From: a virus
Reading direction: 5' to 3' (one strand)
Virus record (IMG/VR): IMGVR_UViG_3300007234_000043
Location: 1-34,086 of that record
Length of the DNA: 34,086 bases
The position numbers were made by a program, and so were the translations under genes. How positions within the stretch are numbered: the first letter of the stretch is position 1; each line of letters starts with the position of its first letter. The notes beneath the pieces were generated by a model. It was not told where the DNA came from, searched no databases, and saw only the letters and a list, made by a program, of their open reading frames with translations. Shown here piece by piece: positions 1-34,086 of the stretch.

Positions 1-422
1 CAGAAAACCGCCCGTCCCAGGACGCGCGGGACGCCGTATCCTGTCGGTCGTGCGGGTGCGCCCGCACTGAAGCCCAGCACTGGGCGGATGACGCCCGGCG
101 GTCCGCCGCCGCTCCACCCCCTGCCGACGACCGTGCCGTCCCGGTCGTCGTAGTCACGCGCCACAAGGCGCTGGTTGAATACCTTCAGGCCAATGGCATG
201 GTGAGACCGGCAGCGAATGTGATCGCCCATGCCACGCATGCAGACGTGCGTGGGAGACGCGTCATCGGGGTGCTTCCCCTGCATCTGGCAGCAGTGGCCA
301 CCTCGGTGACCGAGGTGCCGCTGGATATCCCGGCGGCGATGCGCGGGAAGGAGCTTACATTGGCGCAAGTCAGGGCATTTGCCCGACCGCCCGTGACCTA
401 CACGGTGCGCGTCACAGCATGA
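1..422 (+). CDS. Csx16-like (putative CRISPR ring nuclease) domain protein, 5' end outside the window
   Basis: The frame is open from the window edge and contains no ATG, GTG or TTG before base 198, so the gene starts upstream; the ATG at 198 lies inside the domain. The visible C-terminal ~90 residues read like the Csx16 (VVA1548) family: a beta strand ending in TRH (bases 156-164), a short helix (LVEYLQANG), then VIGVLPLHLAA, VPLDIPAAMRGKELT and a final YTV strand. Csx16 proteins are ring nucleases that degrade cyclic oligoadenylate, the second messenger of type III CRISPR systems. In a phage this would act as an anti-CRISPR. The part before the domain has a CxxCxC cluster (bases 42-59) and a proline-rich linker, possibly a metal-binding region. 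It overlaps the next gene by ATGA. The family call rests on remembered motifs. Confidence 0.6.
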   Translation, partial: ENRPSQDARDAVSCRSCGCARTEAQHWADDARRSAAAPPPADDRAVPVVVVTRHKALVEYLQANGMVRPAANVIAHATHADVRGRRVIGVLPLHLAAVATSVTEVPLDIPAAMRGKELTLAQVRAFARPPVTYTVRVTA

Positions 423-640
423 CCGTCAAGGAGTTCAGGGCGCGGCATTCCCTCACCGGGGCCGCGCTCGCCTCCCTGCTTGGCGTCGAGGCCCGCACTG
501 TCCGCCGCTGGGAGCAGGAGACCGGCCCAACTGCACGCCAAGCCCCTGCGCCCGTCCTGCGCCTGCTCTGGCTCATGGATCGACACGGGATTGGGCTGCT
601 TGATGGCTGCCCTTGTCCAGTACCTTCAGCCCCCGGATAG
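419..640 (+). CDS. Small HTH DNA-binding protein
   Basis: A 73-residue protein with a helix-turn-helix in its first half (residues about 3-35: LTGAALASLLGVEARTVRRWE), the pattern of phage XRE-type regulators that pair with a short C-terminal helix. It starts in an ATGA overlap with the Csx16-like gene, so the two are co-translated. Its last ten codons lie in one copy of a 29-bp direct repeat, so the tail CPCPVPSAPG probably comes from a recombination event and not from the original gene. It converges with the PAPS-reductase-like gene with 8 bases between their stops. Targets cannot be inferred. Confidence 0.65.
   Translation: MTVKEFRARHSLTGAALASLLGVEARTVRRWEQETGPTARQAPAPVLRLLWLMDRHGIGLLDGCPCPVPSAPG
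610..638. repeat. 29-bp direct repeat, copy 1 (flanks the PAPS-reductase-like gene)
   Basis: Bases 610-638 match bases 1504-1532 at 28 of 29 positions (T/C at 621 versus 1515). This copy lies just after the stop of the PAPS-reductase-like gene and, on the minus strand, repeats codons for the end of the preceding gene (residues LKVLDKG). It looks like the scar of an insertion or a duplication by recombination. Confidence 0.85.
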
Positions 641-648
641 GCCGCCCG

Positions 649-1494
649 TCATAGCCCGCACATTCCCTCGCAGTCAGCGTCAAATAGATCCCCGTTCTCC
701 ACGCCTGCAAATTTCACATCACGAAGCGGTCGCAGGGATCGGTGCGTGAACTGGTCGTTGGTCATTTTTGAATTTCCGCGCCTAATGATGTCGTCAACTT
801 CACATGCATCTGCGAAGTCCGCTGGCGCGTTTCGTGCCATATCTGCCCACTGCCAGTCGTCGTGATATGGACACCCAACGCAGGCAGACTTCGGAGGCTG
901 CGGGTATCCCTTCGCCTCCAGCCATGACCGGCAGTCATTTCGGCTGATACCCGCCTCGATCAACGGAAAGCGATTCACCTGCCAAGGTTTGGCCGCATGT
1001 TTCGCCCGAATGATTTCATCAGTGCTGATCCCAATCCAGACCTCAACCTGTGTTCCCGCCGGTACGCGACTGCCCTTCATGACCCCCAACAGACCGCGCT
1101 GCGCTTGCGTCAACGGCTCCAGCTTGTATTCGCTGGTACATTGCCGCATTCCTCGTCCGCCGTTCGCGGTGAAGTACGGCACAGCCGCAACCCTGCCTTC
1201 TGCGCCTTGCGATTGCCTGATTTGGTCTTCGCGGATATTTCCGCCACTGGTAACAATGAACTGAACCTGTCCGTTGGTCATCCGGTTGACCTGTTCTCGG
1301 GTCCATTCAACATGGGCATAAGTCCTGACGCCCTCCCATCCGGTGTCCGCCATGATGACCGCATCCGGAAGTGGACCGATCTCACGATGCAGCGCCATCA
1401 ACAGCATGGCAGTCGATTGGACGCCCCCGCCAAAGCTGAGTACGCGCAATGCAGGATTTTCCAGCGCCGTCATGGTCATCCCCGTGGCGCTCAT
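649..1494 (-). CDS. PAPS-reductase-like / adenine nucleotide alpha-hydrolase (PP-loop) protein
   Basis: 281 residues from an ATG at 1494 that overlaps the previous stop (ATGA). The N-terminus carries an ATP-pyrophosphatase P-loop, SFGGGVQST (residues 20-28), followed by the ADTGWE segment typical of phage PAPS-reductase-family proteins. Cysteines C119 (QCTSEYK), C188, C205 and C208 (KSACVGCPYH) are spaced as a possible Fe-S or Zn site, as in many phage members and in DndC. True PAPS reductase activity is not implied. In a phage carrying several DNA-modifying genes a role in base or backbone modification, or in countering host defence, is possible but unproven. Both sides carry a 29-bp direct repeat, so the gene may be a recent cassette. 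Confidence 0.75.
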   Translation of the reverse strand: MSATGMTMTALENPALRVLSFGGGVQSTAMLLMALHREIGPLPDAVIMADTGWEGVRTYAHVEWTREQVNRMTNGQVQFIVTSGGNIREDQIRQSQGAEGRVAAVPYFTANGGRGMRQCTSEYKLEPLTQAQRGLLGVMKGSRVPAGTQVEVWIGISTDEIIRAKHAAKPWQVNRFPLIEAGISRNDCRSWLEAKGYPQPPKSACVGCPYHDDWQWADMARNAPADFADACEVDDIIRRGNSKMTNDQFTHRSLRPLRDVKFAGVENGDLFDADCEGMCGL

Positions 1495-1979
1495 GCCCTC
1501 ACCCCCTTGTCCAGCACCTTCAGCCCCCGGATCAGTTCCCGCCGCTCCTGACTGTCGTTCACCAGCCAGCCGGGGAACTGCAACAGCCCGCACACGTCCG
1601 TAATCACCGACCGCTGCATCGGGGACAGGCTGGCCTGCATCTTCCGCAGTGCCGCCTGTTCCTCGACCAGATCCGACATACCCCCGCCCGTCGCCGCGCC
1701 GGAACGAATGCCGGGGTTCTCGCTGCACAGGCGATACAGCCTGCCGAAGCGGAACGCTTGCCCCCATTCCCCGTCATCGATCTTGCCTGCCCGCCAGAGG
1801 AAGTCGAAGCCCGTGGCGCTGGCATCCTGCCTGCCCGGCGCGTCACAGATCGCCGCTGCCAGCAGCTTCCGGGCCTGCGTCTCAGGCGTCCCGTGGTCCC
1901 GCTGGCTGACCCTGCGCGCCCGTCCGTTCTTCTCCCGGAGCTTCACGCCGTGTGAGTGTGTCTTGCGCTTCCTGCTCAT
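1491..1979 (-). CDS. Conserved-looking phage protein of unknown function
   Basis: 162 residues, basic at the N-terminus (MSRKRK), with a helical core around FDFLWRAGKIDDGEWGQAF and a C-terminal helical stretch. The start at 1979 has a GGAG ribosome site about 11 bases upstream. No family was recognised. It follows the initiator gene and overlaps the PAPS-reductase-like gene by ATGA. Its last codons (residues about LKVLDKG) contain copy 2 of the 29-bp repeat. Position among replication genes suggests an early function only. Confidence 0.65.
   Translation of the reverse strand: MSRKRKTHSHGVKLREKNGRARRVSQRDHGTPETQARKLLAAAICDAPGRQDASATGFDFLWRAGKIDDGEWGQAFRFGRLYRLCSENPGIRSGAATGGGMSDLVEEQAALRKMQASLSPMQRSVITDVCGLLQFPGWLVNDSQERRELIRGLKVLDKGVRA
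1504..1532. repeat. 29-bp direct repeat, copy 2
   Basis: Partner of bases 610-638, 894 bp away in the same orientation with one mismatch. This copy is in frame inside the C-terminus of the 1491-1979 gene and is likely the original. Confidence 0.85.
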
Positions 1980-3885: not shown

Positions 3886-4997
3886 GCGCGCGCCTCCATG
3901 GATGCGGCGATGAACTCTGATGCAATGCGGGGGTCGATGGCGTTCCCGATGCCCTTCAGGGCCGTCACCCGCCCTTCGACGCCTTGCGCGAGCGGGTAGC
4001 CTTCACGGGGCGACAGTCCACCCACTCCGGCGGAAAACCCATCAGCCATGCACTGAAGTACGGATTCAGGGATGCGCCGGACTTTGCCATCGGCGCACTC
4101 GATTGCCACACCACGCGGCCAAGCAGCCCGTTGTCCGGTGCCGTCCCGACGCTCGATCCGTCCTTGTGGTCCCGTGTCGTCGGTGTCGGCCAGCCCGCCA
4201 GATGTACTTTCGACCCCAGTCCGCAGTCGTTCCCCCGGTACACTCCCGTCTGCTTCGTCAGCCGTTGCTTCCGCGCCCATACCACGTCCGGGTGGGTGTT
4301 GGGTTCCATCGCGCACGGAGTCGGCCAGCCAGAATAGCCGCTGTCGGATGTGCGATGCCCCCGCGCCCGCAGCGCACAAATCGGCTCCCGCGACGGTATA
4401 GCCCATTCCTTCCAGGTCAGCGAATACTCCGGCGAGCCAGTCGCGCCCAGCCTTGCTCGCAACCTGTTCGCCATAGACATTTGCAGGGCGGCACTCCGAG
4501 ATGAGACGGGCGAACTCGGGCCACAGGTGGCGTTCGTCGTCTTCTCCCCGCCCTTTCCCGGCATTGCTGAACGGCTGGCAGGGACACGATCCGGTCCAGA
4601 CGGGCTTGTCGTCCGGCCACCCGGCGATGCGAAGTGCGTATGGCCATCCGCCAATTCCAGCAAAGAAGTGGCACTGAACGAAGCCTTGAAGGTCATCAGG
4701 CTGTACCTCCGTGATTGAACGGGTGTCGATGACGCCGTGCGGTATCAGGCCAGCATCCATCAGGTTGCGCAGCCATTGCGCTGCACCTGGATCAAACTCG
4801 TTGTAATAGACAGGCACGGGCGCTACACGGCGGCTCATTCCGCCCTGCGCATTCCCGGCCCGAAGCTTCCCGGCATTGGCGGAACAATCATGCCCTGCAT
4901 CAGCAGGCCCGTCCCCACCACCGCGCTTCATGCCGGGCGTTGTCTCTGGACCTTCTGGCTGGTCCCCGTGAAAGACGGTGGGGCGGGTATTCTTCAT
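3882..4997 (-). CDS. C5-cytosine DNA methyltransferase
   Basis: 371 residues from an ATG overlapping the GcrA-like stop (a later ATG at 4838 with AGGG upstream is an alternative and would drop a weakly structured 53-residue leader). Motifs in order: I FFAGIGGW (111-118), IV PCQPFS with the catalytic Cys140 (139-144), VI-like VYGEQV (174-179), VIII HIRQRLFWLA (216-225) and X GIGNAIDP (349-356). It transfers methyl groups from S-adenosylmethionine to C5 of cytosine; the target is unknown. No endonuclease partner is adjacent, so it is an orphan enzyme that probably shields phage DNA or changes gene expression. A second frame through the gene is also unusually protein-like. Confidence 0.9.
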   Translation of the reverse strand: MKNTRPTVFHGDQPEGPETTPGMKRGGGDGPADAGHDCSANAGKLRAGNAQGGMSRRVAPVPVYYNEFDPGAAQWLRNLMDAGLIPHGVIDTRSITEVQPDDLQGFVQCHFFAGIGGWPYALRIAGWPDDKPVWTGSCPCQPFSNAGKGRGEDDERHLWPEFARLISECRPANVYGEQVASKAGRDWLAGVFADLEGMGYTVAGADLCAAGAGASHIRQRLFWLADSVRDGTQHPPGRGMGAEATADEADGSVPGERLRTGVESTSGGLADTDDTGPQGRIERRDGTGQRAAWPRGVAIECADGKVRRIPESVLQCMADGFSAGVGGLSPREGYPLAQGVEGRVTALKGIGNAIDPRIASEFIAASMEARA

Positions 4998-5452
4998 GCC
5001 ACCTGTTCCTTCGGCGGCACGTAACAGATGGAATAGTGGTATTCGCAGTACGGCTTGCCGGTCAATGTCTTGTGACCGCAGAAGTGGAAGCCGACTTCGC
5101 CCGGATCGCCGTGCGGGTACTGGCACTGCCTCGGGATGGGCAGATCACCCATGGGCATACGCTTCTTCGCTGGCGCGCGAAAGACGGGCTTGGGAAGGGG
5201 TGCCGACGGCGGCTCCTGGTACACCTGCGGAACCCGAACACCACACGCCCGGCGTGGGGGCTTGCGTATGCCCGGCCCTGCCTTCTTCTCCAGCCCCAGC
5301 CTGTGCGCCTTGCCAATGATGCTGTTGCGCGGGCGTCCCAGCGCGTCGGCCACTTCCCGCGAGGAATGGTCAACCCACATGCGGCGGAGGGTGGTTTCCT
5401 CGTCCAGTGTCCATTCGCGGTTGACCTTGGCCATCTGTGGGGAAATGGTCAT
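4994..5452 (-). CDS. gcrA: GcrA-family cell-cycle transcription regulator
   Basis: 152 residues. The N-terminal DNA-binding domain (residues 14-54) has WTLDEETTLRRMW, then REVADALGRPRNSIIGKAHRLGL, the GcrA hallmark. A proline-rich linker (61-105) leads to the C-terminal sigma70-binding type domain with CQYPHGDP (110-117), FHFCGHK (122-128) and PYCEYHYSICYVPP (134-147). In Caulobacter and relatives GcrA binds GANTC sites methylated by CcrM and recruits RNA polymerase. A phage copy could redirect host cell-cycle transcription or read methylation placed by phage methyltransferases. It lies directly upstream of one. MAKVNREW at residue 7 is an alternative start. Confidence 0.9.
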   Translation of the reverse strand: MTISPQMAKVNREWTLDEETTLRRMWVDHSSREVADALGRPRNSIIGKAHRLGLEKKAGPGIRKPPRRACGVRVPQVYQEPPSAPLPKPVFRAPAKKRMPMGDLPIPRQCQYPHGDPGEVGFHFCGHKTLTGKPYCEYHYSICYVPPKEQVA

Positions 5453-5649
5453 TCGACCACCGCCCGCCAGCCGTCAGCCGCCTTGACCAGCTTGACGTTG
5501 CATCCGACCGCGCTGTGATACTCGTTGTCCCGCCCAAGACTGACCGGGTAGGCAATCGCGCCTTCCAGTCCCCTTTCGGTCCAATACCGCGTGATGCGCT
5601 CGCAGAGAATCCTGCAGCCGTTCACGGATGACCAGTTGATGTCGGTCAT
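5449..5649 (-). CDS. Small unknown protein, 66 residues
   Basis: Preceded by a strong AGGAGG ribosome site. Short mixed alpha/beta sequence starting MTDINWSSVNGCRILCERI with an aromatic C-terminal strand (KAADGWRAVVE). It is coupled to the GcrA-like gene by ATGA. No family recognised. Confidence 0.6.
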   Translation of the reverse strand: MTDINWSSVNGCRILCERITRYWTERGLEGAIAYPVSLGRDNEYHSAVGCNVKLVKAADGWRAVVE

Positions 5650-5672
5650 GCTGTCCTCCTATGGGTGAAGTG

Positions 5673-6023
5673 TCAGAGAAACGCGCGAACGACCATCACG
5701 CCGAACACGAACCCGACGATGGACGTTCCGATGAATGCGGCGATCCAGAGCAGGGCGTTGCGGACAAGCGTCCAACTGAGTCGCTGGCGTTCATCTTCGA
5801 GTTCCGGCAGCTGTTCGGGCTGGTCGTAATCCCGGTCGCCAGCGCGCCAGTCGTCAGCGTCGAAGCGGCCCGGTCCCCAGCCGTCTCTGAAGCACTCGTT
5901 CACGTCACGAACGGTGTCAGTCATTCGCCCCCTGTCTGCTGGGGAGAGGTCTCGAAGGATCGACCCACCAGACGAAACAGTGCGCAAAAACGCCTGCCAT
6001 TCCTTTTCGTCACGGTCGGTCAT
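5673..6023 (-). CDS. Small protein with C-terminal membrane anchor
   Basis: 116 residues: a charged, soluble N-terminal ~85 residues rich in Asp and Arg, then one hydrophobic helix at about 88-113 (NALLWIAAFIGTSIVGFVFG then MVV), ending almost at the membrane. It is likely a tail-anchored inner-membrane protein. It overlaps the preceding HTH gene by ATGA. Function unknown; early expression would fit host takeover or exclusion, but nothing in the sequence proves it. Confidence 0.65.
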   Translation of the reverse strand: MTDRDEKEWQAFLRTVSSGGSILRDLSPADRGRMTDTVRDVNECFRDGWGPGRFDADDWRAGDRDYDQPEQLPELEDERQRLSWTLVRNALLWIAAFIGTSIVGFVFGVMVVRAFL

Positions 6024-6376
6024 GCTGCTTCTCCACGGCTGAACAGCTTCCGTACCGGAGCGACGAGGCGCTGAAGGATGCCGGGATGGACGGGCGTCTC
6101 GACCTTGAATGCGTTGGCGCTCTGAAGGGCGTTGACGAACTCGTCATCCCATGCCGGATCTGCAAGCTTGCGCGGAGCGGGTGCCGGGGAATATTCGCGC
6201 ATGTACTTGCGGACAGCCTTGCGAGACCGGGGGCTTGATCCACCATGTCCACGGGTCCAGTGACCGACCGTTGCATGTGAAAGGCCCGCGCCAAGAGAAA
6301 TCTCGTGGAGCGGCACCCCGGTTTCTTTCTGGAACTTTCGTACTTCCCGGACGATGGCTGCTGTTGCTGGTTTCAT
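6020..6376 (-). CDS. HTH regulator (XRE-like)
   Basis: 118 residues from the ATG at 6376, which has a GGAG ribosome site and overlaps the previous stop by ATGA. Residues about 8-50 form a helix-turn-helix (FQKETGVPLHEISLGAGLSH then ATVGHW). The C-terminal half is proline- and Lys/Arg-rich, possibly for oligomerisation or partner contact. As second gene of the minus-strand block, next to another HTH gene at a divergent promoter, it resembles the second regulator of a phage switch (cII- or YdaT-like position). The exact role is inferred from location only. Confidence 0.65.
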   Translation of the reverse strand: MKPATAAIVREVRKFQKETGVPLHEISLGAGLSHATVGHWTRGHGGSSPRSRKAVRKYMREYSPAPAPRKLADPAWDDEFVNALQSANAFKVETPVHPGILQRLVAPVRKLFSRGEAA

Positions 6377-6600
6377 GCTGCTGTCTCCTTCTCTGCTTTG
6401 CCCGCCCGGTTTGGGCAGTTCTGGTTTGCCTCGAAAAGCTGCTGGGGCGTGACCTTCGCCATGGACATAAGTGTCGGCCAGTGCCAGTCGGGGACGCCGT
6501 TGTTCTGCCATGCCCAGACGGAATTGCGGCTTTTGCCGACGCGACGGGCCACGGACGTAATACCGCCAGCAGCCTCGATGATTTCCTTGATGCTGTTCAT
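6373..6600 (-). CDS. Cro/YdaS-like HTH repressor
   Basis: 75 residues, first gene leftwards from the divergent control region. The helix-turn-helix is clear: IIEAAGGITSVARRVGKSR, then NSVWAWQNNGVPDWHWPTL, the layout of Cro/YdaS proteins (GG..alA..lG.s...v..W...g.vP..). Its ATG lies 7 bases after a possible -10 (TAGGAT), so the message may be leaderless like lambda cI from PRM, though AGGA could also serve as ribosome site. Repeated GTGCAAT-type half-sites upstream are good candidates for its operators. Confidence 0.75.
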   Translation of the reverse strand: MNSIKEIIEAAGGITSVARRVGKSRNSVWAWQNNGVPDWHWPTLMSMAKVTPQQLFEANQNCPNRAGKAEKETAA

Positions 6601-6601
6601 G

Positions 6602-6650
6602 GCGCAATCCTACGTGCAATAATCTTGGTGTGCAACATCATTTGTGCGAT
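6602..6650. promoter_or_regulatory. Operator region with four direct GTGCAAT-like half-sites
   Basis: Heptamers GCGCAAT (6602), GTGCAAT (6614), GTGCAAC (6630) and GTGCGAT (6644) repeat in one orientation at 12-16 bp spacing between the divergent HTH and plus-strand genes. They overlap the likely leftward promoter and lie upstream of the rightward one, as expected for autoregulation by the HTH protein. Confidence 0.45.
6607..6635 (-). promoter_or_regulatory. Possible leftward sigma70-type promoter
   Basis: On the minus strand TTGCAC (6635-6630), 17 bases, TAGGAT (6612-6607). Transcription would begin at or just before the ATG at 6600. Confidence 0.4.
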
Positions 6651-6658
6651 TTTTTATG

Positions 6659-6687
6659 TTGACCGGCATCCGGTATGAAATTATTCT
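6659..6687 (+). promoter_or_regulatory. Rightward sigma70-type promoter with palindrome in the spacer
   Basis: TTGACC (6659-6664), 17 bases, TATTCT (6682-6687). ACCGG-CAT-CCGGT (6662-6674) is a palindrome between the boxes and may be an operator. It would drive the plus-strand block starting at 6717 and rules out an upstream start at 6675. Confidence 0.55.
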
Positions 6688-6716
6688 TCACGCATCACAA
6701 CGAAGGAGAAACAGTG

Positions 6717-6935
6717 ATGACTGCAACATTCCAGGCTTTCGACCGCGACGGCGACCGGACCATGACGGCCACGGCAAAGGCGCACCGGGCCAAGGGCGCA
6801 AGCGCGGACTTCGGCGTCCTGAAGATCGACGTTGACGGAACGTACATCGACATCTTCACCACCCCCGAACGCGCCCGGTTCATTGCCGACGCGATCAACG
6901 CCAGCATCCCGGCCAAGATGGAGGAAGTGGCATGA
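6717..6935 (+). CDS. Small unknown early protein, 72 residues
   Basis: The ATG at 6717 has AGGAG about 8 bases upstream. The sequence is beta-rich (FGVLKIDVDGTYIDIFTTP) followed by a helix (ERARFIADAINASI). First gene of the rightward block and ends in an ATGA overlap with the next. No family recognised. Confidence 0.7.
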   Translation: MTATFQAFDRDGDRTMTATAKAHRAKGASADFGVLKIDVDGTYIDIFTTPERARFIADAINASIPAKMEEVA

Positions 6936-7186
6936 CCATCCACAGCACCAGCCGCGAAGCCCGGAACGAGGCGGACAGCATCAAGGCCGCATTCCGGTCC
7001 ATCGTGACCCTAGCCAACATGCCCGACGAGGCAAAGGCATCGCTTCTGCTGAACGCCGAAGAGTGCGTTGACGAGGCGTTTCACGACGAGATTGCCGACC
7101 TCGAACACGACGAGGAAGCCCGCGCGTCCTGCATCTATCACCGCGAGATTGACGACATGCGACACCCTGACCGGGGGTTTGTGTGA
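6932..7186 (+). CDS. Small acidic unknown protein, 84 residues
   Basis: Helical, strongly acidic protein (FHDEIADLEHDEEAR). ATGA overlap with the previous gene and a one-base TGATG junction with the next. Acidic early phage proteins are sometimes DNA mimics or inhibitors, but no motif here supports that. Confidence 0.65.
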   Translation: MTIHSTSREARNEADSIKAAFRSIVTLANMPDEAKASLLLNAEECVDEAFHDEIADLEHDEEARASCIYHREIDDMRHPDRGFV

Positions 7187-7470
7187 TGGCCTGCATCCGC
7201 GACCTTATCGAAGATGCCCGCAACCGGGAGATTGACCTGATGCAGAAGCGTGACGCTTGGGAGTTTGACCTTCGCAAGCAGATCGTGGCGACGGCCCCGG
7301 ACTGCCTCTCGACACCCGACCACAACAGGGCGATGCAGATGCTTGGCGACGTGGTTCAGGCGGGCTTTGACGCCCTGCTTGCTGACGTGCGCGCCGAGAT
7401 CGACACGCTGGACGCCATGACCTTCACCCATTCCGAGCGGTCCCCTGCCGCCGGAAGCGTGAGCCACTGA
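7186..7470 (+). CDS. Unknown helical protein, 94 residues
   Basis: Starts at the ATG of a GTGATG (a GTG start at 7183 would add one residue). Almost entirely helical (IRDLIEDARNREIDLMQKRD), perhaps a coiled coil. Directly followed by the structured leader at 7471. No family recognised. Confidence 0.65.
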   Translation: MACIRDLIEDARNREIDLMQKRDAWEFDLRKQIVATAPDCLSTPDHNRAMQMLGDVVQAGFDALLADVRAEIDTLDAMTFTHSERSPAAGSVSH

Positions 7471-7532
7471 CTGACGGCTCCGCGCGCCGGGTGGGGCCTC
7501 CCCGCCTGCCCGGCGTACCGAACCGTCAGAAA
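7471..7532 (+). ncRNA. Structured leader element, copy 1
   Basis: Outer stem CTGACGG (7471-7477) with CCGTCAG (7523-7529), inner perfect stem CGCCGGG (7485-7491) with CCCGGCG (7509-7515), and an apical GGGG-CCT-CCCC. The 3' arm belongs to the 16-mer ACCGAACCGTCAGAAA (7517-7532), repeated exactly 130 bp later, and is followed by a ribosome site. It may be a cis-acting RNA controlling processing, attenuation or translation. Confidence 0.5.
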
Positions 7533-7539
7533 CAGGAGA

Positions 7540-7584
7540 ATGATGATGACCCCCACAAGTTCCCGGCGACCCCCCAGCCGGTGA
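7540..7584 (+). CDS. Possible 14-codon leader peptide
   Basis: After an AGGAG site, ATGATGATG opens a frame of 14 residues (MMMTPTSSRRPPSR) between the two hairpin leaders. It is Pro/Arg-rich, which would slow ribosomes; a leader-peptide role is speculation. Confidence 0.3.
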   Translation: MMMTPTSSRRPPSR

Positions 7585-7607
7585 AGCGGATGCGATGACG
7601 TTTCCGC

Positions 7608-7662
7608 GTTCCGGGTGTGGGTCCCAGCCAGGAAGTCACCCGGAACACCGAACCGTCAGAAA
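7608..7662 (+). ncRNA. Structured leader element, copy 2
   Basis: Perfect 10-bp stem GTTCCGGGTG (7608-7617) with CACCCGGAAC (7637-7646), an inner TGGG/CCCA, then the same 16-mer ACCGAACCGTCAGAAA (7647-7662) and the ribosome site AAGGAA of the gene at 7672. Stem sequence differs from copy 1 while the 16-mer is identical. Confidence 0.5.
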
Positions 7663-7671
7663 GGAACTGAC

Positions 7672-7992
7672 ATGCTGATTACCAGTCCACCCGTCTGTAG
7701 TCGCCAAATGGGGAATCCAAAGCCCGGCGAGTTCAAGATGCGCGCCACGAAGAATGGGCCTTGGCTGGCTGCGCAGATCAAGCGTGTGTGCATGTGCACC
7801 ATCGGCGGGTCTGTGCTTCACGATCACACGCCAGACTGTGACAGGCCGGGTTCCCTTACCGCAGAACTGAACGGACGCTCGCACCCCGTTGAAGATGTCT
7901 GGATGTACGGGAGACCAATCACACGGACGGAATACGACCGGTTGTCGGGGTGTGACCCGCGACCGCTTTCATCGCAATCACCTGCATTCTAA
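7672..7992 (+). CDS. Unknown protein, 106 residues
   Basis: Starts at the ATG 7 bases after AAGGAA, immediately downstream of leader copy 2. Contains cysteines and histidines around residues 40-60 (CMCTIGG, HDHTPDC) that could bind metal, and no membrane segments. No family recognised. Confidence 0.6.
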   Translation: MLITSPPVCSRQMGNPKPGEFKMRATKNGPWLAAQIKRVCMCTIGGSVLHDHTPDCDRPGSLTAELNGRSHPVEDVWMYGRPITRTEYDRLSGCDPRPLSSQSPAF

Positions 7993-8003
7993 AGGAGAAG
8001 AAA

Positions 8004-8684
8004 ATGCTTGGACACAACAACCCCCCCGAACAGTTCGCCCGCGTCGATGAACTTGTTGCCAACGCAGATCGGTGGAAGACGGAGCGCCCGGTCATCGAAA
8101 GCGATGATGTTGCCGGTAAGGCGCAGGCGTTCCTTGACCAGCTTCGGTCATGCGCAAAGGAAATCGAGGCCACGCGGAAGGCGGAGAAACAGCCGCATAT
8201 GGATGCAGCCAAGGCCGTGGACCAGGTGTTCAAGCCTCAGATGGATCGCCTCACTGCCGCCGCCAACATCATCAAGGGGCTGCTCACGGAATTCCTCCGC
8301 AAGAAAGAGGATGAACGACGTGCGGCGGAGGCTGAGCAGCGGCGCATTGCAGATGAAGCGGCGCGCAAGGCTGAGGAAGCTGCAAGAGCCGCCTCCAGTG
8401 TCGATCAGCAGGTTGCCGCACAGAAGGCCCGTGAGGATGCCAGCGCGGCTGCGGCAGAGGCAGACCATATCGCCCGGACCCGCTCACAGGTGACCGGTCA
8501 GGGCCGCACGGTTTCTCTCCGATCCTGGAAGGTCGGCGTGATTGTTGACCAAGGCAAGGTCTACCGCAAATTCCGCGATCACCCGTCCGTTATCGAAGTG
8601 CTTCAGAAGCTTGTCAACGCGGAAGTTCGCGGGGGCCGGAGCATCCCCGGAGTGGATATTCGGGAAGAGCAGGAGGCGGCATGA
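8004..8684 (+). CDS. Coiled-coil phage protein upstream of recombination genes
   Basis: 226 residues with AAAGGAG upstream. Residues ~45-160 form a long coiled coil, very rich in Ala, Glu, Arg and Lys (KKEDERRAAEAEQRRIADEA), followed by a compact C-terminal domain (LRSWKVGVIVDQGKVYRKFR). Proteins of this build often precede phage annealase or exonuclease genes; the present one leads, via two small genes, into Rad52 and SSB. Function unknown. Confidence 0.75.
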   Translation: MLGHNNPPEQFARVDELVANADRWKTERPVIESDDVAGKAQAFLDQLRSCAKEIEATRKAEKQPHMDAAKAVDQVFKPQMDRLTAAANIIKGLLTEFLRKKEDERRAAEAEQRRIADEAARKAEEAARAASSVDQQVAAQKAREDASAAAAEADHIARTRSQVTGQGRTVSLRSWKVGVIVDQGKVYRKFRDHPSVIEVLQKLVNAEVRGGRSIPGVDIREEQEAA

Positions 8685-8734
8685 CCCCGGACTTCTGTGA
8701 CCAGTGGACGGCAATCAGGGAGACAATGGAATGA
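8681..8734 (+). CDS. Possible 17-residue microprotein
   Basis: MTPDFCDQWTAIRETME. A strong AGGAGG lies 5 bases before the ATG, and both ends are ATGA overlaps with flanking genes. It may be a real peptide or a device to pass ribosomes to the next gene. Confidence 0.4.
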   Translation: MTPDFCDQWTAIRETME

Positions 8735-8964
8735 GCGAGATCAAGTACACGCCGGGGCCTTGGCGCGCGACTGAGCGCGATTCCGAAATTATCATTGAGG
8801 GTGGCTGTACGGAGGTTGTGGCCGTGCTGCCCAACCCGGCCCGACACGGGTTTGGTGTCGTGTCTGTTGATGAGCGGCAAGCCAACGCTGAACGGATCGC
8901 CGACGCAGTGAATTTTTGGAACAACGTAGCCGCTGCCATCGCCAAGGCGGAGGGCCGGTCATGA
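8731..8964 (+). CDS. Small phage protein of the TPGPW type
   Basis: 77 residues starting MSEIKYTPGPWRA, a frequent start among small phage proteins that end with an alanine-rich helix (here NAERIADAVNFWNN). The ATG is part of an ATGA overlap; the next gene also begins in an ATGA overlap. Function unknown. Confidence 0.65.
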   Translation: MSEIKYTPGPWRATERDSEIIIEGGCTEVVAVLPNPARHGFGVVSVDERQANAERIADAVNFWNNVAAAIAKAEGRS

Positions 8965-9596
8965 CCTTCACCCCCGAACAGACGGCAATGCTGTCATCAC
9001 CCCTTGACCGCTCCCACGTCAAGACACGCCAGCAGGCCGGGCAGAACCTGTCCTATGTCGAGGGCTGGCACGTCATCGCGGAGGCCAACCGGATATTCGG
9101 CTTTGACGGCTGGACCCGGCAGACCGTGCAGCTTGATTGCGTCCATGCAGGAGAACGCCCGGACGGGAAGGCGTCGGTCACGTATCTGGCCCGCGTTCGC
9201 ATCATTGTCGGGCGGGGGGATGATCTGGTCATTCGCGACGGGACCGGCAGTGGACACGGCATTTCCAAGAACATGGGTGACGCCCACGAAAGCGCCATGA
9301 AGGAGGCCGAGACGGACGCCATGAAGCGCGCCCTGATGACCTTCGGCAACCCCTTCGGTCTGGCGCTGTACGACAAGACGCAGGCAAGCGTGGAGGACGC
9401 GCCACCGCCGCCGTTCGACCCCGAAGCCTGCTTCACGCGCATCAAGGAGAAGATCGGTCAGGTGGCCAACGGGAAGGCGCTGGACACGTTCCTGCGTGGG
9501 GAGAAAGCCAACCTCGACCGGCTCCCGACAGAGAAGTTTGACGAACTCAAAGCGGTGGCAACCAAGCGCCGCGAAGAAATGGAGAAAGCAGCATGA
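8961..9596 (+). CDS. Rad52-family single-strand annealing protein
   Basis: 211 residues. The Rad52/Rad22 core is plain: [20 protein letters not shown] (31-50), [13 protein letters not shown] (74-86), the glycine-rich DGTGSGHG (93-100), and [19 protein letters not shown] (107-125) followed by [14 protein letters not shown] (126-139). Rad52 proteins anneal complementary single strands and are the phage counterpart of lambda Beta. A C-terminal helical tail follows. It overlaps SSB by ATGA, which fits joint action on single-stranded DNA. No partner exonuclease was recognised. Confidence 0.9.
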
Positions 9597-10030
9597 GCGG
9601 AAGCATCAACAAGGTCATCCTGGTTGGCAATGTGGGCCAAGACCCGGAAGTGCGCCGGATGAACAACGGTGACGCGGTTGTCACCCTGTCGGTGGCCACC
9701 GGCGAAAGCTGGCGGGACAAATCGTCTGGCGAGCGCCGGGAGAAGACAGAGTGGCACCGCGTCGTGATTTTCAACGAGCATCTGGCCAAGGTCGCCGAGC
9801 AGTACGTCCGCAAGGGATCGAAGGTCTATGTTGAAGGCCAGATCCAGACCCGCAAGTGGACCGACCAGCAGGGCCAGGACAAGTACAGCACCGAAATCGT
9901 GCTCAACCGCTTCCGTGGCGACTTGCAGATGCTCGACAGCAAGGGTCAGGGTGGGGGTGGAGAGACGCCGCCGGGTGCGGGGGATCTGGACGATTCCATA
10001 CCATTTGCCCACCCGTGGGGTGAGCGGTGA
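9593..10030 (+). CDS. ssb: Single-stranded DNA-binding protein
   Basis: 145 residues with the OB-fold pattern: [19 protein letters not shown], then [36 protein letters not shown] glycine-rich linker leads to an acidic tip, DDSIPF (133-138), the docking peptide for replication and repair proteins. Here seven more residues (AHPWGER) follow, whereas the tip normally ends the protein. Confidence 0.93.
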
Positions 10031-10284
10031 TGCTTCGCGCGCTCACACTGCAATGGCAGGCGGTCGGGCCGTTGGTCGAAGTGGATTCGCTCGGCGTGGC
10101 GGATATCTGCACGACAGACCCGGCCATGTTCGGGCAGGGGCATTTCCCCCGGTCAGACGCCGAATCCTGCGAGATTGCCAGATTCATCGCAGCCGCACCG
10201 GCAATGTATGCGCTCCTGACAGATTGGGTGACAGAAGGCAGCGCGCCACCGGACGCCGTGGCAATCGTGGAACGGTTCAGTTGA
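10030..10284 (+). CDS. Unknown protein, 84 residues
   Basis: Starts at the ATG of TGATG at the SSB stop. Two beta hairpins then a helical end (FIAAAPAMYALLTDWV), similar in style to small phage proteins with a C-terminal AAPxLLxAL helix. No family recognised. Confidence 0.6.
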   Translation: MLRALTLQWQAVGPLVEVDSLGVADICTTDPAMFGQGHFPRSDAESCEIARFIAAAPAMYALLTDWVTEGSAPPDAVAIVERFS

Positions 10285-10607
10285 AATCACGCATCGACAA
10301 GTCGCAACTGCCGTTCGGGTTTCAGGGCGTCACCGAAGCCCCTGACTTCCTGAAATGGCTCGCGCCGAAGCCCTGCGTGATCTGTCATTCCCGCCCGGTG
10401 GATGTTGCTCACCTGCGTCTCCGCAAGGGGCCGGGGACGGGTGCCGGGCGGGGGCAGAAGAACGACCGCTACGCGATGCCCCTGTGCCGCCCCTGTCACC
10501 GCGAGCAACACCGGGTCGGGGAGCGGGTCTACTGGCGTCATCAGGACCCTCACGGCATCTGTGACGCGCTCTGGTTCGAATGGAAGCGGGAGACAGCCAA
10601 TGACTGA
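10281..10607 (+). CDS. HNH-like (DUF968-type) nuclease-fold protein
   Basis: 108 residues from a TTG in a TTGA overlap with the previous stop. Metal-site pattern C32-x2-C35 (CVICH), H44 (VAHLR), C69-x2-C72-H73 (LCRPCH) and H77, the layout of DUF968/HNH zinc-finger nucleases found beside phage recombination genes. Probably a structure-specific or single-strand DNA nuclease acting with the SSB and NinB neighbours. It overlaps NinB by 8 bases. Confidence 0.7.
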   Translation: MKSRIDKSQLPFGFQGVTEAPDFLKWLAPKPCVICHSRPVDVAHLRLRKGPGTGAGRGQKNDRYAMPLCRPCHREQHRVGERVYWRHQDPHGICDALWFEWKRETAND

Positions 10608-10989: not shown

Positions 10990-11152
10990 CAACGAACGCG
11001 CCGTCATCGAGGCGGCTGTGGAGTGGGGGCATGTCCGCGACTTCTGCGGCAAGACGGCGGTCACGACCGAACGCCGGGCGGACGACCTGGCCTCTGCATT
11101 GGCAGAACCGCACAACGAACATGATGGCAAATGGGAGCCGAGCCGGGAATGA
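10982..11152 (+). CDS. Small acidic unknown protein, 56 residues
   Basis: ATG at 10982 (after AGAGGAG) opens MSDNERAVIEAAVEWGHVRD..., ending in EPSRE with the stop overlapping the next ATG. Helical, resembles short accessory phage proteins with an EAAVxW start. No family recognised; it fills the only gap between NinB and DpdA. Confidence 0.65.
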   Translation: MSDNERAVIEAAVEWGHVRDFCGKTAVTTERRADDLASALAEPHNEHDGKWEPSRE

Positions 11153-11901
11153 TGTTTTTCGTCGGCCTCCATCAACCGAGTGATTGTCAGCACTTCGCCA
11201 GGTCATTCGTGAGCGTGAACAGACTGCGGCAGCGGAAAGCTCCGTTCGCAGTGAATGACTGGATCATGGACAGTGGGGCGTTCACCGAGGTCGCCGTACA
11301 CGGCGGCTACCGCAGTTCCGTGCAGGACTACGCCACCGAAATCAACAGGTGGTCAGAGAACGGCGCTATGCTGGCAGCTGTCGCTCAGGATTGGATGTGC
11401 GAACCGTTTGTGCTGGCGAAAACCGGGATGACAGTCGCGGACCATCAGCGGCTGACGGTCGAACGATACGACGAACTGATGGGAGAGGCCCCTGCGGCGT
11501 ACATCATGCCAGTCTTGCAGGGGTATGAGCCTCACGAGTATGCGCGACACGTCCGCGAATACGGAGACCGGCTGTCCTTTGGCGCATGGGTCGGCGTGGG
11601 GTCCGTCTGCAAGCGCAATGCGTCACCGGAGAGCATTGCCTGTGTGCTTGCGGCGGTCAAGGACGAGCGCCCGGACCTGCGCTTGCACGGCTTCGGACTG
11701 AAATTGACCGCGCTCACGTGGGAGTCTGTTTCTGCGCAACTGCACTCCGCCGACTCGATGGCCTGGAGCTTTGCCGCACGGCGCGGGGGGCGCAACGCAA
11801 ACGACTGGCGGGAGGCGGAACAGTACCGCCAGACCGTCGAGGACCGAAAAGGAACCGTGAAATGTGGCTTTCAGCCTATGTTGCCTCTGTTGTCGGCGTG
11901 A
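11149..11901 (+). CDS. dpdA: DpdA-like DNA 7-deazaguanine transglycosylase
   Basis: 250 residues (ATG 11149 or 11152). It resembles phage DpdA proteins, relatives of tRNA-guanine transglycosylase: MDSGAFTEV (40-48) matches the TGT DSGGFQ site, with PVLQGYEP (121-128), GAWVGVGSVCKRN (145-157), LHGFGLKLTAL (179-189) and SADSMAWSFAARR (200-212), where D202 is the likely nucleophile. The zinc cysteines of tRNA enzymes are not seen. DpdA swaps guanine in DNA for a 7-deazaguanine such as preQ0, which blocks restriction. A precursor transporter follows in the operon; synthesis genes (folE, queD, queE, queC) are absent from the window, so the precursor presumably comes from the host. Confidence 0.8.
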   Translation: MMFFVGLHQPSDCQHFARSFVSVNRLRQRKAPFAVNDWIMDSGAFTEVAVHGGYRSSVQDYATEINRWSENGAMLAAVAQDWMCEPFVLAKTGMTVADHQRLTVERYDELMGEAPAAYIMPVLQGYEPHEYARHVREYGDRLSFGAWVGVGSVCKRNASPESIACVLAAVKDERPDLRLHGFGLKLTALTWESVSAQLHSADSMAWSFAARRGGRNANDWREAEQYRQTVEDRKGTVKCGFQPMLPLLSA

Positions 11902-28035: not shown

Positions 28036-29841
28036 TCACACGGTCTGCGCTCTGGCATCCGCGTAATTCTTGGCGGCGGCGCTGATGTCCTTGAGCGCGC
28101 TCGCGTTTGTTTCCTTGACTTCAGCCTCGGTCTTGGCGATTTCCGCCATGGCACCGCGCCTCGCCAGTTCCTGCTGTTCCTGCATCGCCTGCGCCTGTTC
28201 CGGCGACTGGCCACCGCGCATCCGGTCAAGCAACTGCTCCCGGTTCCGCAGGCCCGGCATCATCTCGATCAGCACGTCCGGCGGGAACTGAACCCCCGCC
28301 TGCGCCAACTGCACCACCCGGTCGAAGTTCTCCGCCATGATGGTGATGGTGTCCGGGGCATCCTCGACGATGATGTCAACGTCCAGGTCCGCCAGCGTGT
28401 TCACGCTCACCATCTGCTGCGACCGTGGATCCTGCTGCGCCAGCGCCATGATCTGCTGCTGTTTCGCGGGCGGTTCGTTGGCAATCTTTTCCTGAAGCAA
28501 CTGGATCGCCGGAACCTGCCGATTGAGGCCCACGAAGCGCATGTTGCGCTCGTCATCCGTCACCCTGATCCAGCGTTCCTCGGTCCAGAACTGTTGCACC
28601 CGGTCCCATATCGCCCGGTACATGCGGATATTGAACCAGCGCAGCCGGTCCAGAAGCGTGGCAATCTCGGTCTGCCCGCCCTGCTGACTGGCAAGGATGG
28701 CCCGGCCCGATGCTTCCTCGCCCGCACGGCCTGTCAGGGCTGCATTCGGCCCCATCTGGTCCATGTCCGCCTTGATGTCCGCGAGCAGGTTGAAATGGCC
28801 GACGATTTCCTCGTTGTTTGCCAGAATTTCAAACCGCTTGCCGGGGTGCGCCTTGATGACGCCATCCGGCTTGGACAGTTCCCGGCGGACTTCGCGTTCG
28901 TCGTCAACCGCGCCATCGTCCATGATGATCTGACGGGCAATCAGGTTGTGCAGCAGCTTCGACCGCCGCTTGTTCACTTCGTCCTGAAGCGGGCGCATGT
29001 CTCGCACGACGCCCTGACGCTCGTTGTCCCGCTGCACGTAGGCCGATACCAGGATCAGCGGGCAGGCGGTCCCATCCTCCGTCATGAAGGGTGACGGGCC
29101 GTTCTTGATGAGTACGTTCGCCGTGAACTGCGCAAACGACCAGTTGCCCGAGCCGTCGCGATACCAGCATGTGACGATCTTCACCCGCTTGCGCTTGTGA
29201 CCGTGAATCCACCGGGGCTTGTCGTCGTATGTCTCGCCCTGTCCACGACCCTGAAGGTCTGCCGACATTTCCAGTTCGCGCGCACTGTCCGGGAACTTCG
29301 CCTTGGCGACCTCGAAGTCCATCCAGACGATTTCACCCATGTACCGCGCATCGGAGAAGTCATGCCGTGCGCTGGTCGGGTCATAGAACAGCCGGTCCCA
29401 GGGGATCAGCCGTAGTGCAACTTCCACCCGTCCCTTGCGGTTCCGCTTGATCTCCACAGCCGCGCCGCCGAAGCCCTCGACAAGCATGTGCTCCCATACA
29501 TCGGACCTGATGCTGTCGCCGTTCTGGTTATCCCAGACATAGCGCAGGGCGTCCGTTGCGGCCTGTGATGCGCTTTCATCCTGCGGGTTGCGCGGGAACG
29601 CCTTCGGGTCCGTCCGCTTGATCTTCTCCAACCCGGTGAGATAGTCGATCTTGCGCTTGATGCGGTTGTCGGTCGTGACCGGCTGGCCGCGCTGCTTCAG
29701 GGTGCGGACCTCGGCATCGGTCCACTGCACACCGTCATAGTAATTCCGGTCGAGTTCGGAACGCTTGCGGGGTTCGATGGTGGCGTCTTCCGCTTCCTCA
29801 ACCCACTCCGTGAGCATGGACAACAGCGCATCGTCTTTCAT
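28036..29841 (-). CDS. Portal protein, P22 gp1-like
   Basis: 601 residues from the ATG at 29841, in an ATGA overlap with the terminase. Start pattern ELDRNYYDGVQWTDAEVRTL, RGQPVTTDNRIKRKIDYLTG is that of P22-type portals. The long C-terminal helices (ELARRGAMAEIAKTEAEVKE) form the barrel. It makes the dodecameric DNA entry ring and binds gp4 and the terminase. Confidence 0.9.
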   Translation of the reverse strand: MKDDALLSMLTEWVEEAEDATIEPRKRSELDRNYYDGVQWTDAEVRTLKQRGQPVTTDNRIKRKIDYLTGLEKIKRTDPKAFPRNPQDESASQAATDALRYVWDNQNGDSIRSDVWEHMLVEGFGGAAVEIKRNRKGRVEVALRLIPWDRLFYDPTSARHDFSDARYMGEIVWMDFEVAKAKFPDSARELEMSADLQGRGQGETYDDKPRWIHGHKRKRVKIVTCWYRDGSGNWSFAQFTANVLIKNGPSPFMTEDGTACPLILVSAYVQRDNERQGVVRDMRPLQDEVNKRRSKLLHNLIARQIIMDDGAVDDEREVRRELSKPDGVIKAHPGKRFEILANNEEIVGHFNLLADIKADMDQMGPNAALTGRAGEEASGRAILASQQGGQTEIATLLDRLRWFNIRMYRAIWDRVQQFWTEERWIRVTDDERNMRFVGLNRQVPAIQLLQEKIANEPPAKQQQIMALAQQDPRSQQMVSVNTLADLDVDIIVEDAPDTITIMAENFDRVVQLAQAGVQFPPDVLIEMMPGLRNREQLLDRMRGGQSPEQAQAMQEQQELARRGAMAEIAKTEAEVKETNASALKDISAAAKNYADARAQTV

Positions 29842-31292
29842 GCCGTTCTCCAATCCGATTCATCAATGTCATCGTCCAGCAGGCGCGCCCAGCGGTCCCG
29901 CTTCGGTTTCGTGTCCGGTCGATCCCGGCCACCCGACACAAGGTCATCCAGCATCCGCCCGAACAGGCTCAGAACGTCCACCTGGTCATCGTGCTTTGCA
30001 GCCGGGAAACTCAACAGTTCCGCCATCAGATCCGCCAGCCATGGCGCATTGCTCGGTAGGTAGACCTTGCGCATCGCTGCACGGGCCTGAAACGACCGCG
30101 CTCGGGTTGGCTTGTCTGCCGTACTGACGAACTGCTCCCGCGCGCCATAGACCCGCCGTTCCCGTTGCCGCTTCTCAATGAAGGGTCCGACAGACTTGAT
30201 GATCTGCCCTTGTTCCTCGGCCCAATTCAGCGTCTTCCAGCGGTCCATCAGGTCAAGGAACGCCTCGATCCACACGTCCGGGGAATAGCGGCCCCGCCAC
30301 CAGTCCAGAACGTACAGGTTGTCATCAGCGTCAACGCCCATGACGCCGTGAACCGTGAAGTCACCCTTGCCCTCCGACACCGCGTAGTCGCTCGCCCCGT
30401 ATGTCCGCAGATGCTTCGGCGGTTCGTCATACCAACGGAACCAGTCCCGCTTGAAGAACAGCCCCTCATCCGGTGCCGGTGACTGCTGGTAGAGCGCAGA
30501 CCAGTCCCGAACCGGCAATGCCGCCCTGATCCGTGCCAGTCGCTTCTGGTCGAACCGTTGAGGCCACAGGGCCTTTCCGTCATCGTCAATCGCTGGCAGG
30601 TTCAGCACGTCCCACTGGTCCCCGCCCCGCTGCATTTCTTCCAGCAGGTAACCCGCAAGGTCGTCTTCGTGCCACCGCGTCTGGATCAGGACCATGGCCC
30701 CGTTCGCAGACAGGCGCGTGTAAGCCGTGGAGCCGTACCAGCCCCGTATCATTTCCCGTCGCCGTTCGCTGTCCGCCTCTTCCCGGTCCTTGATGGGGTC
30801 ATCAATGAGGAAGATGTCCGCACCACGCCCCGTGATGGCCGTCCCGACACCCGCAGCCACGTAACCGCCGCCGTCTGTCGTGTGCCAGCGGTTCGCCGCC
30901 GTGCTGTCCTGCGCCAGATCCAGGTTGGGAAACACGTTCCGGCATTCTGGCGACCGTGCGATGTTCCTGACCTCCCGCCCGAAGTCGTTGGCCAGGTCCG
31001 AGTTGTATGACGCCCCGATGATGGACAGCTTCGGGTTCTGCCCCAGCGCGAAGGCCGGGAAGCGCCGAGACGCCAGTTCCGACTTGCCGTGCCGTGGAGG
31101 CATGAAGATGGCCAGCCGGTCGATCTCGCCACGAATGACGGCTTCCAGCTTGTTCGCGATCAGCTTGTGATGAGGGGCCGGTTCGTAATCCGGCTTCGTG
31201 TACTCAGTGAATGCGATCAGGCTTTGACGGGCTGTCCTGCGTCGTAGCAGTTCCGTCGCCGCCTGCGCGGGCAATACGTTCGAGTTCTGCAT
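29838..31292 (-). CDS. terL: Terminase large subunit
   Basis: 484 residues. Walker A MPPRHGKSE (64-72), Walker B IFLIDDP (160-166), the coupling motif after it (TRWHEDDLAGY), and nuclease acidic residues in GVMGVDADDNLYVLD and KHDDQVDVLS. ATPase and nuclease that packages DNA. The start overlaps the small subunit by 89 bases without a clear ribosome site, so translation is probably coupled; a slightly later start is possible. Confidence 0.92.
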   Translation of the reverse strand: MQNSNVLPAQAATELLRRRTARQSLIAFTEYTKPDYEPAPHHKLIANKLEAVIRGEIDRLAIFMPPRHGKSELASRRFPAFALGQNPKLSIIGASYNSDLANDFGREVRNIARSPECRNVFPNLDLAQDSTAANRWHTTDGGGYVAAGVGTAITGRGADIFLIDDPIKDREEADSERRREMIRGWYGSTAYTRLSANGAMVLIQTRWHEDDLAGYLLEEMQRGGDQWDVLNLPAIDDDGKALWPQRFDQKRLARIRAALPVRDWSALYQQSPAPDEGLFFKRDWFRWYDEPPKHLRTYGASDYAVSEGKGDFTVHGVMGVDADDNLYVLDWWRGRYSPDVWIEAFLDLMDRWKTLNWAEEQGQIIKSVGPFIEKRQRERRVYGAREQFVSTADKPTRARSFQARAAMRKVYLPSNAPWLADLMAELLSFPAAKHDDQVDVLSLFGRMLDDLVSGGRDRPDTKPKRDRWARLLDDDIDESDWRTA

Positions 31293-31614
31293 CGGTCATG
31301 TATTCCGCAGGCGAATTGCCGTGCTCGACGACATGGGTCTCTTTCCACTGCGCCTGCGTCTTGAGCCAGAAGATCATCGCCGTGGTGTCGCCGGCCAGGC
31401 ACTTCTTGAACAACGTGCCGCATACCTGTGCGTTGGCCTTGGCCTTCGACATGTCCAGTTCGGCGCGGTAATGCTTGCGCAGTGTTTTCGAGTCGATACC
31501 AAGCACGTCAGCAACGATTTCCTGCGGTGTGCCGACCATGGTGTGCATCTGCACGGTCTGGCGTGTCGCGTCTGTCGGTTCGTGCGCTGGGCGTCCTGGA
31601 TGACTACGCGGCAT
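31204..31614 (-). CDS. terS: Terminase small subunit
   Basis: 136 residues. N-terminal HTH (RQTVQMHTMVGTPQEIVADV, LGIDSKTLRKHYRAELD), the pattern of phage small terminases with the basic start PRSHPGRPAH. A central oligomerisation helix (ANAQVCGTLFKKCLAGDTTA) and disordered tail follow. It picks the packaging site. Overlaps the methyltransferase gene by 11 bases. Confidence 0.85.
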   Translation of the reverse strand: MPRSHPGRPAHEPTDATRQTVQMHTMVGTPQEIVADVLGIDSKTLRKHYRAELDMSKAKANAQVCGTLFKKCLAGDTTAMIFWLKTQAQWKETHVVEHGNSPAEYMTDAELERIARAGGDGTATTQDSPSKPDRIH

Positions 31615-32866: not shown

Positions 32867-33219
32867 GTCCGGTAATCCTCTTGCTCGTCATCCCTGCGTG
32901 AGCGGTAGCGGATGCGGAGTGTTTTCTTCTGCCCGGCACTGTCGGTGATCTGCTGTTCAAGCTCGCCAGACGCGCCATCGTCCAGTTCAACCGTGAATGT
33001 CGCTGTCGTCGTGGTGTTGCTTTCACCCGTGATGGTCATGTCGTCGGCGGTGTTGGTCACGGCGCTGATGGTGTTGGAACCAAGCCAGCGGGACCAGTCA
33101 ACCGTATAGGTCAGCTTATCGTCGTCGTCGTGAAAGGCTGTCGGATAACCGCTGAGCATGAACAGGCCGCGCATGGTGAGGCGACCGTTCTCTTGCATCA
33201 GGATTGTCCGGTCAGCCAT
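32863..33219 (-). CDS. Small beta-rich phage protein, 118 residues
   Basis: Single beta-sandwich-like domain (YTVDWSRWLGSNTISAVTNT, TGESNTTTTATFTVELDDGA) with a charged C-terminus (RIRYRSRRDDEQEDYRT). It looks like a small Ig-like or head-fibre domain protein (known in phages as a head or tail decoration). TAATG junction with the upstream gene. Confidence 0.6.
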   Translation of the reverse strand: MADRTILMQENGRLTMRGLFMLSGYPTAFHDDDDKLTYTVDWSRWLGSNTISAVTNTADDMTITGESNTTTTATFTVELDDGASGELEQQITDSAGQKKTLRIRYRSRRDDEQEDYRT

Positions 33220-33542: not shown

Positions 33543-33610
33543 GGCGTATCTCCTGTGTTGCGGGGACGCCCAACCGCATCAGACGCACTGATGGAGGTTG
33601 CTTGACTGAC

Positions 33611-33639
33611 ATAAAACCACATGCAGGACAGGGAATCAA
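33611..33639 (-). promoter_or_regulatory. Candidate late-operon promoter
   Basis: Minus strand TTGATT (33639-33634), 17 bases, TTTTAT (33616-33611). Start near 33604, about 60 bases ahead of the first late gene. Confidence 0.45.
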
Positions 33640-33660
33640 CCCCGTTCGCTCGGGCAGCGG

Positions 33661-33687
33661 TTGGGAATTTCCTTCAGATTTTCCCAA
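33661..33687. promoter_or_regulatory. Inverted repeat between divergent promoters
   Basis: TTGGGAA (33661-33667) and TTCCCAA (33681-33687), 13 bases between. It may be a regulator site or weak hairpin. Confidence 0.4.
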
Positions 33688-33750: not shown

Positions 33751-33966
33751 ATGACAATTCAGAACCGTGAAACCTCCGCCGAATATTTCGGCATTCTCGC
33801 AGACGGTCACGCATCGGGGCGGCTGGCCCTAATTGCGGAGACCACCGATAAGGCGGTTGAGGCACTGACCGATATTTGCAAGGCGGCAGGCGTGACGTGT
33901 CCCGGTGATGACCGGCTCGCAAATATCGAAACTGCAATCTACGCCATGTTGAAGGCGGCTAACTGA
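33751..33966 (+). CDS. Small unknown early protein, 71 residues
   Basis: AAGGGAG about 8 bases ahead of the ATG. Helical, mildly acidic (LALIAETTDKAVEALTDICK, NIETAIYAMLKAA). First gene of a strongly promoted rightward transcript. No family recognised. Confidence 0.65.
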   Translation: MTIQNRETSAEYFGILADGHASGRLALIAETTDKAVEALTDICKAAGVTCPGDDRLANIETAIYAMLKAAN

Positions 33967-34066: not shown

Positions 34067-34086
34067 ATGGAAGACACCAACTGGAC
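34067..34086 (+). CDS. Start of the next plus-strand gene (cut by the window)
   Basis: AAGGGAGAAAGACAG then ATG and MEDTNW. The same ribosome-site sequence AAGGGAGAAAGA precedes the gene at 33751. Confidence 0.5.

Follow-up and report, generated by a model that had tools for sequence, protein, structure and literature searches.

The csx16 gene that is divided between the two ends of the window quite probably encodes a virus-adapted Csx16, a cyclic tetra-adenylate (cA4) ring nuclease that would act as a type III anti-CRISPR. The window, the whole stretch of DNA analysed here, is a podovirus-like IMG/VR virus record of 34,086 bases. The assignment rests on the protein family, the viral setting, a clade separate from cas-linked Csx16, the conserved residues, purifying selection and a zinc-ribbon motif, all read from the sequence.

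Virus record and extent of the csx16 gene

The terminase large subunit encoded in the window identified the record as that of a tailed virus, and a portal protein and a phage stabilisation protein were also encoded. The ORF at 3–422 (+) was open from the first bases of the window, with its first complete codon at position 3, and contained the motifs VVVTRH, VIGVLPLHLAA, LDIPAAMRGKELT, and YTV. The contig IMGVR_UViG_3300006026_001913 (L002) was composed of window 28962–34086 at 100% identity, 17 extra bases, and window 1–329 at 100% identity. This contig joined the window end to its start, and therefore the window represents a genome of ~34.1 kb, either circular or circularly permuted, that was cut inside csx16. 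The features of the region were as follows.

29838..31292, − strand: terminase large subunit (phrog_38, E = 8e-117; 59% identity to the counterpart in Pseudanabaena phage Pam1)
33696..33724, + strand: promoter-like site TTGACC-17-TATATT ahead of the three-gene cluster (10 of 12 matches; 0.3 expected per shuffle)
33751..33966, + strand: 71-aa ORF with no family match, upstream of csx16 on the same strand
34067..34086, + strand: 5' end of csx16 with its ATG start (MEDTNW...); the gene runs on into 17 bases that L002 contains (5126–5142) and the window lacks
1..422, + strand: remainder of csx16, residues 14–152 of the 152-aa protein
3..107, + strand: remainder of the putative zinc ribbon, and linker; second CxxC at 42–53; Pfam and PDB scores marginal, model confidence low
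144..407, + strand: Csx16 (Cas_VVA1548) domain, alternating β and α, five strands; conserved RH, H, GxLP, and RGxEL
419..640, + strand: 73-aa helix-turn-helix (HTH) protein, overlapping the csx16 stop by 4 bases (HTH_31, E = 3e-4, under the cut-off; phrog_7950 transcriptional repressor, E = 1e-7)

Upstream extension of the contig, which the original prediction had proposed as the way to the true N-terminus, gave through L002 a full protein of 152 aa that starts at ATG 34067 and begins MEDTNWTCRECETENRPSQDARDAVSCRSCGCARTEAQHW. The 17 junction bases missing from the window encode the first CxxC, that is, the first two cysteines. The start codon was preceded by GGGAGA and was the sole in-frame ATG, GTG, or TTG upstream of the TRH motif; therefore, the N-terminal fusion is real and is not the product of an internal start. 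Cas10 was absent from the window record, and a general Pfam scan of the window proteins detected no other cas family, in agreement with the earlier statement that no cas gene lies near.

The Csx16 domain

The Pfam profile PF09652 (Cas_VVA1548) matched residues 50–129 of the ORF over profile positions 2–84 of 91, with an E value of 9.3e-18 and a score of 64.6 bits against a gathering cut-off of 25 bits. Together with the presence of the motifs first described, this score bore out the reading of the ORF as a Csx16-like protein. The profile search that had been suggested as a check was nevertheless divided in its outcome, because TIGR02620 (Csx16) matched the window protein at 21.2 bits (E = 2.5e-4), which is under the NCBI trusted cut-off of 46.35 bits. 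Profile–profile comparison with cas-linked Csx16 gave an E value of 8e-16 (98.6%).

Residues T/S52, R53, H54, H76, G89, L91, P92, R114, G115, E117, and L118 (numbered, like all residues named singly here, in the 139-aa scheme) were common to the viral clade and the cas-linked Csx16 proteins. The two sets differed at A57, three residues past the RH pair, which was changed to Leu in the viral clade, and at S/T90, after the conserved Gly, which was changed to Val. These clade-specific changes could affect substrate or activity. The dN/dS values of 0.16–0.17 in two pairs indicated purifying selection.

The predicted model of the core had a pLDDT of 94.4 and the order β-α-β-α-β-α-β-α-β, with five strands. 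This layout is in line with the Csx16 core, which has been described as five-stranded and Rossmann-like (PMC12409355). The structural comparison envisaged in the original prediction thus yielded a confident five-strand model and no significant PDB match. Foldseek searches of the whole model against PDB and BFVD, and of the core against PDB, gave no match at E < 0.001, and the fold evidence is therefore neutral; no Csx16 entry appeared in a sequence search of the PDB. The cOA-bound CARF proteins (Cad1) and AcrIII-2 were returned by Foldseek only at E values of 0.7–2.6 and were not counted as evidence. Many ankyrin and DARPin matches in a PDB search made with the first alignment were attributed to the chance likeness of GVLPLHLAA to the ankyrin motif G.TPLHLAA. 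The ankyrin reading was rejected because the match was confined to that short region and single repeats scored weakly.

A separate virus- and plasmid-borne clade

The Csx16 tree was split into two groups with a support of 100/99. Group a was composed of the window protein, 35 other viral loci, a phage-like MAG contig, and three plasmid genes, and group b was composed of four cas-linked Csx16 proteins, Methanobacterium virus Drs3, an archaeal plasmid, and one viral locus (L069). All four cas-linked sequences came from gammaproteobacterial plasmids with type III or other cas genes adjoining csx16, namely Cas10/Cmr or cas1/cas2 genes. The TIGR02620 scores were 87–114 bits for these four proteins, 45–59 bits for the rest of group b, and 19–30 bits for ten members of group a, with 42.6 bits for the second csx16 gene of plasmid pMESIL02. 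The window protein thus belongs to a virus- and plasmid-borne Csx16 clade apart from cas-linked Csx16. The view that this clade is specific to viruses and plasmids has its main weakness in the comparison set of four gammaproteobacterial proteins, which is small because the genome scan was made with the viral motif.

The window protein shares with cas-linked Csx16 the domain itself and the RH, H, GxLP, and RGxEL residues, whereas it differs in its clade, in its TIGR02620 score (21 against 87–114 bits), and in its putative N-terminal zinc ribbon. It also differs in setting, since the window and 49 virus carriers lack Cas10 and the gene thus lies outside a type III CRISPR locus. Methanobacterium virus Drs3 is likewise a tailed virus with a gene of the Csx16 family, whose product is annotated as a putative CRISPR-associated protein. 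However, the Drs3 protein groups with the cas-linked proteins in the tree, at the end of a long branch, scores 45 bits with TIGR02620, and has no zinc ribbon.

The separate virus/plasmid clade is new, whereas Csx16 in phages as such was already known: a survey found it in two of 28,114 phage genomes (PMC12409355), which may be the two Drs3 records of the phage collection. The proposal of a new viral form therefore holds for the clade and not for phage Csx16 in general. A viral Csx16 clade and a zinc-ribbon fusion were both searched for in the literature, and no description of either was found.

Relatives in viruses, plasmids, and genomes

Conserved-motif scans of IMG/VR gave 38 and 42 viral loci. 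A scan of viral contigs with a cas-type alignment gave one locus, and a single-sequence scan of viral contigs with cas-linked Csx16 gave none. PF09652 scored over its cut-off in all 49 IMG/VR carriers that were checked, the locus from the cas-type alignment among them, and a stop codon inside the domain was found in none of them (0/49); the Cas10 palm domain and Csm1 over cut-off were each absent from all 49. One terminase model matched 24 of 50 records, the window included, and was over its cut-off in 17 of the 50, many of the records being fragments. The window and the viral tree rows formed 36 clusters at 90% identity.

A motif scan of 84,980 species genomes gave one locus, located on a phage-like contig that encodes a serine-type integrase, a phage clamp loader, a helicase, and an endolysin. 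The MAG to which this contig belongs has Cas10 on another contig. The genome-scan patterns were slightly stricter than the viral ones, yet 25 of the 35 viral rows would pass them, and therefore the patterns do not explain the difference between the virus and genome counts. As the motifs were derived from mobile-element sequences, the counts show that this branch is virus-rich and do not describe Csx16 as a whole. A phage collection searched with three clade members gave no match, and a cas-linked query retrieved from it only Methanobacterium virus Drs3, in two records, with a Csx16 of the cas type.

The putative N-terminal zinc ribbon and other fusions

The cysteine-containing N-terminus reported in the original prediction proved to be real, and what had been visible was half of the motif. 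The full pattern, C-x2-C-x15-C-x2-C, extends across the contig break. The likeness of the window N-terminus to Pfam Zn_ribbon_RPAB4 (E = 0.074, under the cut-off) and to RPB12 in the PDB (E = 0.023) was marginal, and AlphaFold confidence was low at the N-terminus for a folded sequence without the first CxxC. From its cysteine pattern, the N-terminal domain is probably zinc-binding. A search for other proteins with the N-terminal ribbon of the window protein retrieved the same virus only.

A zinc-ribbon-like N-terminus, CPFC-x14-CEHC, was also present in the viral relative L015, and that of L022 (CRFC) is perhaps another such case. Putative zinc ribbons thus occurred in at least two branches of the clade. 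The ribbon is present in L015 and absent from its sister L008, which is joined to it at 100/99 support; therefore, there has been more than one gain or loss of a ribbon. Long N-terminal extensions were found in L020 and L056, and long C-terminal extensions in L007, L014, L039, L040, and L057, none with a Pfam match. The plasmid pMESIL02 carried two csx16 genes (L050 5989–6774; L004 7983–9998). One of them encodes two Csx16-like domains in a single protein, as judged by eye with one domain scored, and the other has a 580-aa extension; no further cas genes were annotated in the stretches of pMESIL02 that were read. A second, divergent Csx16-like domain was located in a neighbour of csx16 of 321–329 aa (L011 10331–11293; L042 8979–9968); one of these two contigs is viral and 261 kb long, and the other belongs to a MAG.

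Proposed function and alternatives

For one Csx16, ring-nuclease activity specific to cA4 has been proven, and the same protein did not degrade cA6 (PMC12409355). Of the two substrates that the original prediction put forward for a cleavage test, cA4 is thus borne out for that Csx16 and cA6 is not. A precedent is given by the viral ring nucleases AcrIII-1 and AcrIII-2 (PMC12751052). AcrIII-1 (Crn2, DUF1874) is a small ring nuclease that viruses use against cA4 (PMC12409355), and the window protein is proposed to work likewise; however, AcrIII-1 belongs to a different protein family and gave no sequence match to the window protein in any search. AcrIII-2, a viral SAVED ring nuclease, is a part of the host type III machinery that a virus has put to use for cA4 degradation (PMC12751052). 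Unlike the window protein, it is a 230-aa SAVED protein with two CARF-like domains, and that study knew it from one virus. Crn4b, which occurs in phages and plasmids, has a fold unrelated to the window protein and a broad specificity.

In the proposed mechanism, the type III CRISPR complex of the host would make cA4 on meeting viral RNA. In the viral Csx16, probably a dimer, the conserved RH, H, GxLP, and RGxEL residues would form a pocket where cA4 is bound and cut, so that cA4-activated effectors would stay off or be switched off. The zinc ribbon may be an added module for dimer stability or for placement near nucleic acid or a host protein, which is a guess. The viral Csx16 and the HTH regulator would probably be expressed from a short accessory operon.

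It is unlikely that the viral protein is instead a sponge, which would take cA4 or another cyclic nucleotide out of action by tight binding, with no efficient cleavage. Csx15, which is grouped with Csx16 in the literature, mainly sequesters cA4 (PMC13148439) and gives this reading its precedent, and the clade-specific substitutions near the pocket would also suit it; all strongly conserved polar residues of the active family, however, are kept in the viral clade. Furthermore, the authors of the Csx15 study argued that type III systems make so much second messenger that a sponge may be of no use against it, and they noted that phages lack Csx15 (PMC13148439). Quite unlikely is a change of target, in which the clade would have moved to another nucleotide signal, such as a CBASS cyclic nucleotide or some other nucleotide, cyclic or linear, and would counter a non-CRISPR defence. 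The deep split of the tree (100/99) with its fixed differences, the low TIGR02620 scores of the window protein and clade members, and the many unrelated viruses among the carriers are consistent with such a move, but the conserved residues are the same as in the cA4-specific family, and the MAG of the single genome carrier has Cas10.

A role as a regulator that damps a type III system on the same virus or plasmid, as cas-linked Csx16 does, is very improbable: the cas-linked genes on plasmids do lie beside Cas10/Cmr or cas1/cas2 genes, but the Cas10 palm domain was found in 0/49 virus records and was not found in the window. Most improbable is a decayed or non-functional passenger gene, which the lack of conserved partner genes might suggest; the domain was free of stops in 49/49 records, dN/dS was 0.16–0.17, and the residues were conserved over 36 distinct sequences. 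The cA4 ring nuclease acting as an anti-CRISPR is therefore the preferred reading.

For the branch as a whole, the balance tips slightly towards a broader proposal. The virus- and plasmid-borne Csx16 proteins, far commoner in viruses than reported, would be another class of viral ring nucleases directed against type III systems, beside AcrIII-1 and AcrIII-2. This class would be modular, with zinc ribbons joined more than once, a double domain in a plasmid protein, and long N- and C-terminal extensions, and the added parts would direct the enzyme to a site in the cell or widen its range of targets. If this is true, diverse viruses, with at least 36 distinct sequences among them, commonly counter cA4 signalling with Csx16, and these viral forms score under the threshold of the CRISPR-oriented profile TIGR02620. 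The clade would supply ready test proteins for comparing the viral versions with the host damping enzyme in rate, affinity, and added domains.

Gene neighbourhood

The 71-aa ORF, csx16, and the 73-aa HTH gene formed a cluster of three on the + strand. The spacer of the promoter-like site ahead of the cluster contained an imperfect inverted repeat, GACCATT/ATTGGTC, recognised by eye, and the fold of this stretch was unexceptional (z −1.3). The HTH protein is a possible repressor of the csx16 operon. The coupling of the two genes noted earlier was confirmed in the window by the 4-base overlap, but the HTH gene was not conserved in the clade, and an XRE-type HTH was found near csx16 in two other relatives only (L015 and L040). 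The Aca-like, that is, anti-CRISPR-like, arrangement is therefore weak evidence and a local feature at most. No conserved neighbour family of csx16 was found among the relatives, either in a first comparison, in which a simple gene caller lost many loci, or on repeat with the csx16 gene fixed.

A PAPS-reductase-like phage protein (window 649–1767, −; phrog_424, E = 5e-45) was encoded on the opposite strand, adjoining the HTH gene. A DpdA-like protein (deoxypurine in DNA) was encoded at window 11131–11901 (+; Pfam, E = 1.6e-41); it may modify the viral DNA, as another counter-defence. On a 33 kb viral contig (L003, ~4300–10400), a similar stretch of ~100–150 bases was observed by eye before most small genes, including csx16, and this stretch may be a promoter or a cassette element that recurs along the contig.
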